From Bdellovibrionales bacterium (GTDB taxonomy: Bacteria; Bdellovibrionota; Bdellovibrionia; Bdellovibrionales; Bdellovibrionaceae), in contig JAFEAQ010000006.1 in NCBI GenBank assembly GCA_018266295.1, forward strand, positions 124,001 through 188,000: a stretch of DNA of 64,000 bases, in the 5' to 3' direction. A model generated the notes under the pieces. That model was not told the DNA's origin, ran no database searches, and saw only the letters and a program-made list of their open reading frames with translations. Made by a program: the position numbers and the translations under genes. Below are positions 61,030 through 63,404 of this stretch, in pieces (the stretch's first letter is position 1; every line of letters begins with the position of its first letter).

Positions 61030-61752
61030 TTAAAGAGTTGTACGCCCGTCGAGGTCTTCGGGACAAAAATTATAAAGCAAACTTCCGTCCCGAACCAGTG
61101 GCTTCAGCGTACTATAATCTTCACGAGTCAACTGGGTGCAACCTTCGCTCATATTGAGGTACCCATCGCGTTTCATCATGAACTGAGCTTCCGCAGCTGT
61201 CTTGTTTGGATGGAAAATAATGGTGCGTGCGTAACTATTATCGTTCCGAGGCTCAAGACTATATAAGTACAATGCATTACCGAATTGAGTTTGAGTTTTC
61301 TCATTCCCGATCAGCATAAATCCCGGAGGTGTCTCTTTGCTATTTGGACGGTTTGAACAGTGATAAACTTTTGGACCGAATCCACTTCCCCAGCCGTGCG
61401 ATACCAAAAAGCGTGCGGCGGATCCAGTTTGCAAATCCAAAACGATCAGACGTTTTTCTGTCGACTGTTGAGTCATATCCGCCACCGTCACGTAACGGCG
61501 GTTTACGATACGGCTTTCAAGCTGCGCTTTACCGGTCTGCAAGAAGCTCACAGTGCGGGCGACAGCTTCTGGGCGAACTTGCTGGGCTTGCGCCACGGTC
61601 GAAAAATTCTGAATATACTGAGACCAAGGATCCAAAGGTTGTTGTGGTGCCGGTTTTTCTTTTTTCGGGCGTTTCCATGGCCAAGTAAAAGCCATCGCGG
61701 ACTCTGTGCCGAACGCAAAAACCATAACTAGCATAATCACTGAAAATTTCAC
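61030..61752 (-). CDS. Exported L,D-transpeptidase family protein (YkuD_2-type)
   Basis: The start is set at a GTG (61752) with GGGGG six bases upstream; a TTG at 61809 adds a basic stretch. Residues 1-21 form a signal peptide, followed by a Pro/Lys linker. The catalytic domain has FLVSHGWGSGFG (His119), TPPGFMLIG, TIIFHP and NMSEGCTQL (nucleophile Cys205 in a Ser-x-Gly-Cys). This matches the murein L,D-transpeptidase catalytic family in 240 residues. Such enzymes cross-link or edit peptidoglycan; Bdellovibrio uses L,D-transpeptidases on the prey wall during bdelloplast formation. The pair of exported genes upstream (61877-63404) is near and on the same strand. Confidence 0.82.
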   Translation of the reverse strand: MKFSVIMLVMVFAFGTESAMAFTWPWKRPKKEKPAPQQPLDPWSQYIQNFSTVAQAQQVRPEAVARTVSFLQTGKAQLESRIVNRRYVTVADMTQQSTEKRLIVLDLQTGSAARFLVSHGWGSGFGPKVYHCSNRPNSKETPPGFMLIGNEKTQTQFGNALYLYSLEPRNDNSYARTIIFHPNKTAAEAQFMMKRDGYLNMSEGCTQLTREDYSTLKPLVRDGSLLYNFCPEDLDGRTTL

Positions 61753-61876
61753 GAGTATCCCCCTGGCTATCAAGCTCGGTGAGATTATTCGTCCAGAGGA
61801 TTTAATCAACTTCTGACTATTTGCGCAGAGAAAAATTACAAGTGTTTACGAAGCCATGAAGAAAGCTGGAAGAACC

Positions 61877-62443
61877 TTAGCCACCGTGGATTTTGTCTTT
61901 GTTCACCATACGAATTTCCATATGGTGAGTCTTCTTGTCCAAATCAAACAGGATGCGATAGCCGCCATTAATGCGTACTGTGTGAGCATCTTTCCCAAAC
62001 TGTTCCACTTGCTCGTAGCGCCACTTGCCGGGATTGTTTTGAATCTCTTTAAAACCGCCAGGACGCGAAGCAATCTCGAGGAACTCATCGACGTTTTCTT
62101 GCAGATCCTTCGGAAGCTTTTTGATTTCTTTCTCGGCCTTGTGCTGAACATTATAAGTATTCGACACGGCAACTGCTGGCTTATCCGTCGCAGAGGCCGA
62201 AAAGGGTTTCGAGGCCGCAGGAGTTTCAGCTTTTGCCGTGGCACCCGGCTTGTACTTTTCAATCAGCGCCTGCATTTGCTTTTCGTCGCCGCCCCCCTTC
62301 GCAGACAGCTTTGCATAGTCTTCCCAGAACGCACCGTTGTTAGCAAGCTCCGGGTCTTTGAGAGCCATACTCATCATACAATCCGTAGCCAATACGGACT
62401 GCGAGAAAATCAAAACTAAAAAGAAGAAGATTCTAGTAAGCAC
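61877..62443 (-). CDS. Exported RelE/ParE-fold protein
   Basis: The GTG start at 62443 has GGAGA nine bases upstream and lies within the end of the upstream gene (11-bp overlap). Residues 1-19 are a signal peptide (ends VLA-TD), 20-65 form a short helical region, 66-95 an Ala/Lys/Pro linker, and 97-188 a RelE-type domain: AEKEIKKLPKDLQENVDEFLE, then YEQVEQFGKDAHTVRINGGYRILFDLDKK and the final strand MEIRMVNKDKIHGG. YRILF (162-166) is the core strand of the RelE/ParE/HigB toxin fold. No antitoxin frame is adjacent. An exported ribosome- or nucleic-acid-binding domain would be aimed outside the cell, perhaps at prey. Activity is unproven. Confidence 0.75.
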   Translation of the reverse strand: MLTRIFFFLVLIFSQSVLATDCMMSMALKDPELANNGAFWEDYAKLSAKGGGDEKQMQALIEKYKPGATAKAETPAASKPFSASATDKPAVAVSNTYNVQHKAEKEIKKLPKDLQENVDEFLEIASRPGGFKEIQNNPGKWRYEQVEQFGKDAHTVRINGGYRILFDLDKKTHHMEIRMVNKDKIHGG

Positions 62444-63404
62444 AGCTTAAGATCTCCTTCGTCGCTAAATTTAAATCCGGAGTTTTAAAACCCTGCTTCT
62501 TAAGATCGCCGAGTTTCGCCAAGAGCGAACCCGCTTTACGCAGCTTTGCAATGGCCATCGGAATAATTTTCGTGAGGGTTCCGGCAAGAATCGCCGCTTG
62601 AATAGCACCACCAAGCACTTCACCCGTCATCGTACAGGCAATTTGCAGTTTTTGTTCTGCAGGCATATTTCCAAGAGTGTCAATCATGCTGATCACTTCA
62701 GACTTCATATTGAGTGCAAACTCTTTCAACTCACTGAAGGAGTTCTTCATGTCAGTCCAAAGTGCTCCAGGATCCGACACTAGCTTTTTAAAGAAGTTCA
62801 TCGTGCCTTCAGCGGATTGCTTCACGCCTTGTAAGGCATCCATTCCACACTTGCCGATCATGCGTAAGATCGCACCGTCTTCAAGACCGGCAGAGCTTTC
62901 CGCCAAGGTTTGCTGAGCCGTCGTCTTTGGATTACAATCCGCATCCGCAGCATAGGCAGAGTTCATAAGCAGCGACCATTTCGAAGCCGATAAACGCGGT
63001 TTAAAGGGCGCTAAAATGTGATTCAGTTCCGCCGAGCTAAAACCCAGCGCCATCAAAACGTAACTTGAACCCTCGATTTGAAAATGAAAAATGGATGCTC
63101 CCAGCTTTTCATCGCGCAGGATGACTCCCATTTTTTCGGCGGGCGCGACAAGGCCCTCTTTGACGAGGATCGCCTTGTCCCAGTCTTGGTTCACGTAGAC
63201 AAAGTCAAAAGGCATCCCCACTTGAACGAAACTGGCACTGCGCACAGACCAAAGTCCTTCGCTCTCAAAGGTGCGACTGAGCTGCTGGGCCTTTAAGAGC
63301 GACGGATGCAATAGACTTTTGGCTTCAATTTGATATTGAAAGCCCCAAGACCTCGGTCCGACAAAGATGAAGAAAAGCAAAAGCAGAATTCGCATGGCCT
63401 GCAT
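62433..63404 (-). CDS. Exported partner protein of the RelE-fold gene
   Basis: Start ATG at 63404, or 63395 (MRILLLLFFIFVG); neither has a clear ribosome site. A signal peptide (ends SWG-FQ or nearby) precedes about 300 residues. The first half is soluble, with YVLMALGFSSAEL and AYAADADCNP. The second half is helical with an amphipathic or hydrophobic segment, GEVLGGAIQAAILAGTLTKIIPMAIAKL, which resembles pre-toxin segments that sit before polymorphic toxin domains. Three Cys (DCNP, GKCGM, LSCAY) may pair. It overlaps the RelE-fold gene by 11 bases, so the two proteins are made together, perhaps as a delivery partner or a split toxin. No homolog is recognised. Confidence 0.65.
   Translation of the reverse strand: MQAMRILLLLFFIFVGPRSWGFQYQIEAKSLLHPSLLKAQQLSRTFESEGLWSVRSASFVQVGMPFDFVYVNQDWDKAILVKEGLVAPAEKMGVILRDEKLGASIFHFQIEGSSYVLMALGFSSAELNHILAPFKPRLSASKWSLLMNSAYAADADCNPKTTAQQTLAESSAGLEDGAILRMIGKCGMDALQGVKQSAEGTMNFFKKLVSDPGALWTDMKNSFSELKEFALNMKSEVISMIDTLGNMPAEQKLQIACTMTGEVLGGAIQAAILAGTLTKIIPMAIAKLRKAGSLLAKLGDLKKQGFKTPDLNLATKEILSCAY

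Follow-up and report, generated by a model that had tools for sequence, protein, structure and literature searches.

A putative two-gene exported toxin with a RelE-fold payload and a shared partner protein in Bdellovibrionota

Polymorphic toxins with an exported Tox-RelE tip are already known and have been listed as exported via the type II secretion system (T2SS)/Sec route (Zhang et al. 2012, PMC3482391). In these toxins, the tip forms the C terminus of one long chain with repeats or HINT, and it is accompanied by an immunity gene (Imm54 is listed). Here, we analyzed a stretch of 64,000 nucleotides from a Bdellovibrionales bacterium (Bdellovibrionaceae; GenBank assembly GCA_018266295.1, contig JAFEAQ010000006.1, positions 124,001 to 188,000 of the forward strand), referred to as the window, and in it a pair of overlapping minus-strand genes, P and T, at 61877..63404. 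T resembles Tox-RelE in being a predicted exported RelE-fold (BECR) RNase that would act as the toxin tip and in its conserved Arg residues. However, here the tip is a separate exported protein encoded after an overlapping partner gene, P, and no immunity gene is present. Homologs were collected by searching 144 genomes of the class and by a profile search of 369 Bdellovibrionota genomes, together with their flanking DNA.

Two-gene effector systems have been described in the same phylum. CapCone-2 systems of Bdellovibrionota are predicted to be directed against prey and, similarly to P/T, comprise two adjacent genes for exported proteins without an immunity gene (PMC12419801). In them, a hydrolase, patatin, acyltransferase, or outer membrane protein accompanies a Lipocone enzyme domain (H2 His, H4 Asp), whereas P contains conserved Cys and Gly residues and pairs mainly with nuclease-type toxins. 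No His or Asp was found among the near-invariant columns of the P alignment (A9), as judged from inspection of the columns rather than from a Lipocone profile. The exported insecticidal toxin Txp40 (PDB 7xbj) is likewise secreted with a RelE-like C-terminal part and was also a Foldseek match of T. It was the best match of the T profile to PDB sequences (E = 2.4e-4), with only about 40 residues covered, but it is a single longer chain from an insect pathogen. Judging from the cysteine pattern described below, P/T may also share a disulfide and the combination of a membrane-active and an enzymatic part with disulfide-joined two-part (AB-type) toxins, although no sequence relation to these exists. 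In a literature search outside which most subscription literature and preprints lay, neither the P family nor any split polymorphic toxin in which exported second proteins are interchangeable was found to be described, and the split, Bdellovibrionota-wide system appears to be new to the literature.

We interpret P and T as an exported, split polymorphic toxin with an RNase payload, a reading to which we assign a probability of about 0.7. The P/T family may serve to disable prey or rival cells.

The RelE-fold protein T and its overlap with P

Gene T (61877..62443, minus strand, as are all features of the pair) is an open reading frame (ORF) of 188 codons. Its product is composed of a signal peptide (residues 1 to 19, 62387..62443; recognized from the sequence and with a hydropathy script), one cysteine, a linker, and a C-terminal RelE-fold domain (residues 97 to 188, 61880..62155). 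The initial annotation, made from the letters alone, had proposed this fold by eye, and profile and structure searches now concur. The PHROG profile for RelE-like toxins matched residues 98 to 182 with an E value of 3.6e-6. The AlphaFold model, based on a five-sequence alignment, displayed a beta-alpha-alpha-beta domain for residues 97 to 181 at a predicted local distance difference test (pLDDT) value of about 88. RelE, YoeB, YafQ, and HigB toxins accounted for nearly all of the top 50 Foldseek matches in the PDB, with a best E value of 4.3e-5 and template modeling (TM) scores to the target mostly between 0.67 and 0.77 within the first ten. The match to the Pfam HigB profile, taken by itself, remained below the cut-off (E = 0.076).

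The catalytic residues of YoeB are Glu, Arg, and a His at the C terminus. Residues Glu144 (62012..62014), Arg157 (61973..61975), Arg163 (61955..61957), and His186 (61886..61888) of T were invariant in ten homologs. In the profile match with YoeB, the Glu and both Arg residues landed on PEKLK and SRRINHEHR: Glu144 corresponds to the Glu in PEKLK, Arg157 to an Arg in SRRI, and Arg163 to the catalytic Arg. His186 is located where the catalytic C-terminal His of YoeB would be expected, a position assigned by analogy only. In RelE, the active residues are Arg61 and Arg81 (PMC3482391). Since the conserved Glu/Arg/Arg/His pattern matches YoeB/RelE residues, T is likely, as far as its sequence can tell, to be an active, ribosome-dependent, YoeB-like mRNase.

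The N-terminal part of mature T starts with Cys22 (62378..62380), its sole cysteine, which is invariant in the alignment of the ten homologs (A4). The helical region that follows (residues 22 to 66, 62246..62380) contains the invariant residues F39 and W40, forms helices in the AlphaFold model, and is a possible docking segment to P.

With its fold and its active-site residues, T could be an ordinary toxin of a type II toxin-antitoxin system that acquired a hydrophobic N terminus by chance. We consider this extremely improbable. Unlike YoeB, RelE, and HigB, T is predicted to be exported and carries an N-terminal helical extension with a Cys, and the signal peptide and the following Cys are kept in all ten relatives. 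As the initial annotation had stated for this locus, no antitoxin-like frame was present beside T, either in the window or in the nine homologous loci. True RelE/HigB pairs look different: in L008 and L009, ordinary cytoplasmic toxin genes adjoin HigA-like helix-turn-helix genes.

Gene P (62433..63404) encodes 323 amino acids and overlaps T by exactly 11 nucleotides (62433..62443), so both ORFs and the overlap stand as initially annotated. The GTG start codon of T spans the TGT codon of Cys321, the third-last residue of P, and a candidate ribosome-binding site of T, AAGGAG (62454..62459), can be read inside P, 10 nucleotides upstream of the GTG. Overlaps of 11 or 13 nucleotides occurred in 28 of the 37 loci with a split arrangement. 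A homology search of the source genome found T in single copy and one match for P. The Sec-like N termini claimed for both proteins were recognized again by eye and with the hydropathy script.

The partner P, its payloads, and the cysteine pattern

P starts with a predicted signal peptide (approximately residues 1 to 21, 63342..63404; likely start Met4), read from the sequence and from hydropathy by eye. It is followed by a predicted alpha/beta N-terminal domain (residues 22 to 138, 62991..63341), modeled in blocks with pLDDT values mostly between 54 and 88. A conserved AxA motif (A150-Y151-A152, 62949..62957) is located just before Cys157. AxA or AxG was found no more than 11 residues before this cysteine in 40 of 47 P homologs, compared to 15% at random places. 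AxA is the classical signal-peptidase pattern; cleavage of P between its two domains at this candidate site is therefore possible. A second full signal peptide that includes this motif was rejected, since the stretch in front of it was no more hydrophobic than random.

The domain after AxA is helical. As proposed in the initial annotation, it contains a pre-toxin-like hydrophobic segment: the stretch behind Cys257 was the most hydrophobic internal 19-mer in 48 of 55 homologs, with a mean of 1.1 acidic residues per 32. Based on the hydropathy of homologs, this helix (residues 257 to 290, 62535..62636) resembles a translocation domain, and it may act in translocation. P had no Pfam or NCBIfam match and hence no recognized trafficking or pre-toxin domain, and the PADLOC and NCBIfam scans yielded nothing useful. 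Foldseek returned only weak matches for P (RseB N-terminal domain, E of approximately 0.2), and no confident structural relative was identified.

A separate P gene, representing a constant exported module, was found in 37 loci. The payloads of the P family formed at least 15 sequence clusters, present either as an overlapping second gene or as a C-terminal fusion; the E values used for clustering apply to a very small database, and the link of the HGHP group to the RelE cluster is only weak. Split second genes of the other classes also encode their own signal peptide and a Cys. Among them were a colicin-E3 Cytotoxic domain (an rRNase) in L101, scanned as L016 (E = 3.4e-20), a CdiA-type RNase A (RNAse_A_bac) in L065 (E = 3.1e-8), and a Tox-HNH-EHHH nuclease in L090 (E = 3.9e-8). 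In L067, P and the protein glutaminase domain Gln_deamidase_2 (E = 1.1e-5) form a single ORF. All four matches pass the Pfam cut-offs; several further payloads had no Pfam name. The same payload can occur in both arrangements: domain X is split from P in L103 and fused to it in L104, and payload HKH is split in L076, L078, and L085 and fused in L110. A constant module with varying payloads typifies polymorphic toxins; here, on the sequence evidence, module and payload are distributed over two genes. Strong independent support for the suggestion that T is an effector comes from the P homologs, in which RelE is replaced by many other known toxin domains.

P and payload classes co-varied on the tree, requiring 17 changes where the minimum was 16 and the mean after shuffling 39; frequent payload shuffling among close relatives was not seen. 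Such cognate pairs would also suit a different function, in which P, as an exported chaperone or inhibitor, prevents harm from T, whose RNase activity would serve to digest prey RNA. Predators are known to digest prey nucleic acids. However, this explanation is improbable, because P is fused N-terminally to payloads within a single chain, because specific poisons such as RelE, colicin-E3, and glutaminase domains are poor digestive enzymes, and because P has no inhibitor-like relative.

Three cysteines of P were near invariant in split and unsplit proteins alike. Among homologs with a residue at the respective position, Cys157 (C1, 62934..62936) was present in 34 of 35 split and 17 of 17 fused or orphan proteins; the corresponding values were 36/36 and 21/21 for Cys186 (C2, 62847..62849) and 37/37 and 20/20 for Cys257 (C3, 62634..62636). 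The fourth behaved differently. A cysteine within the last six residues, represented by Cys321 (C4, 62442..62444), occurred in all 37 split P proteins but in only 2 of the 15 that are fused or orphan. A Cys shortly behind the signal peptide was shared by all 37 second proteins (L099 read separately). Two related orphan P proteins, in L089 and L091 (G231 and G232), have lost both T and the terminal Cys. From this pattern, an intermolecular disulfide joining the terminal Cys of P to the Cys near the N terminus of T seems rather likely. For the 11-nucleotide GTG overlap found in the window, the Cys of P is not forced by the reading frames, and in no case does the overlap impose the Cys of T.

Further gene arrangements were noted around P-type loci. 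L020 (390-869) contains a gene for a stand-alone protein with a signal peptide and domain X, which recurs in L104, where the fused P-X gene lies immediately downstream of it; next to the fusion, it is perhaps a spare payload cassette. In L154 (3028-4602, G223), an exported protein carries, behind a P-like C-terminal domain, a diguanylate cyclase domain of the GGDEF type (Pfam E = 7.7e-12), which may be an extracytoplasmic cyclase or an unusual payload. By eye, a secreted-looking gene resembling DNA/RNA non-specific endonucleases adjoins the G015 RelE pair on the other strand (L003, 696-1487; also in L096).

Proposed mechanism and points against it

According to the split-toxin reading, P and T would both leave the cytoplasm via Sec. 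P would supply its N-terminal domain, the possible AxA processing site, and the hydrophobic helical C-terminal domain, which would probably help T to reach or cross the target membrane. The disulfide between P and T would probably form outside the cytoplasm and be broken in the reducing cytoplasm of the target, freeing T. As the swappable payload, T would then stop translation in the entered cell by ribosome-dependent mRNA cutting of the YoeB/RelE type. The producer would be spared by export of the RelE domain, and no antitoxin would be needed for the same reason. Export beyond the periplasm, the disulfide, the RNase activity, and the target are all elements that we infer. Sec-tagged reporters of B. 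bacteriovorus do reach the medium (PMC12622784).

A number of observations weigh against this interpretation. No dedicated secretion component was seen near the P/T genes, leaving export beyond the periplasm and cell entry without such support, and no experimental work on any P/T member was found. The signal peptides were predicted by eye and with a crude hydropathy script, and the AlphaFold model of P was weak overall (pLDDT 61). P and T classes are co-inherited, and free shuffling among close relatives was not seen. Concerning the cysteines, the Fisher test for C4 (P = 1.7e-10) overstates independence, since the sequences are related. Where the overlap comprises 13 nucleotides and T starts with ATG, the P codon is forced to be TGN, encoding Cys or Trp. 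Finally, four cysteines in P and one in T leave one without an evident partner.

To our knowledge, it is still an open question by which means prey is shut down by invasive predators such as Bdellovibrio, whose known weapons are mostly directed at the cell wall. We give even odds to prey being the main target of P/T. A more far-reaching proposal, which we regard as tentative and rather doubtful, is that two-piece toxins kill prey throughout the phylum, each consisting of a membrane-translocating carrier and a disulfide-joined, swappable enzyme that is freed by reduction in the prey cytoplasm, in this case an mRNase halting prey translation soon after entry. If true, a set of exported, nuclease-type payloads that share one carrier across the phylum would provide named genes with which early prey killing could be tested, a source of new antibacterial enzymes, and an example of a polymorphic toxin whose two parts are exported as separate proteins.

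Distribution, immunity-like genes, and neighboring genes

The broader P profile had matches in 82 of the 369 genomes, the weakest of which cover only part of P. In ten genomes from several families, P is directly followed by an overlapping RelE-type T, and this repeated adjacency and overlap sets the pair beyond chance. Named records behind four of these loci are assigned to Bdellovibrionaceae, Bdellovibrio sp. UBA4095, and uncultured Bacteriovoracaceae metagenome-assembled genomes (MAGs); the source organism, a possible predator, shows a family relationship to Bdellovibrio MAGs. It should be noted that many of the genomes are MAGs, and single loci may have been scored as split or fused because of an assembly error. 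As a cause of the splits, such errors are disfavored because the overlap recurs and a second signal peptide is present.

The ten RelE loci did not share a genomic neighborhood, with a single match between L097 and L098. In the P tree, L095 (of the family of the window) joins L074 (Bacteriovoracaceae) within the RelE class, in conflict with the genome families. This tree and the differing neighbors are as expected of transfer of the RelE-type pair between lineages. A phage or plasmid origin was not supported, as no relative of T was found in viral contigs and none of P in plasmids.

The conflict with genome families, together with the patchy distribution and the payload diversity, is typical of classic polymorphic toxins, and the pair could be a weapon against kin or competing predators rather than prey. 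Immunity-like third genes point in the same direction. A close, non-secreted third gene was detected in 5 of the 37 split loci, all of other payload classes (L055, L088, L059, L090, and L093), and one of the five has MORN repeats. These are candidate immunity genes for HGHP, L059-type, and HNH payloads. However, all ten RelE loci lacked such a gene directly downstream, and few exist elsewhere. Toxins without an immunity gene have been interpreted as being directed against other species, and this absence has served to mark predator-prey toxins (PMC12419801). The P family is also limited, as far as searched, to Bdellovibrionota; the wider contig scan used the alignment of T, not P. We therefore regard a weapon against kin or competitors, the chief alternative, as unlikely. 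For the RelE loci, the missing immunity gene leans toward prey as the target, but sparing of the producer by export alone is another explanation for it.

Directly downstream of T, the window encodes an L,D-transpeptidase with a signal peptide (61030-61809, minus strand; YkuD_2, E = 7.1e-25), which is not kept beside the pair in other genomes. The C-terminal domain of P was additionally matched, weakly, inside exported proteins of 1000 to 1400 amino acids (L147 to L152 and others), possibly larger relatives of the carrier.
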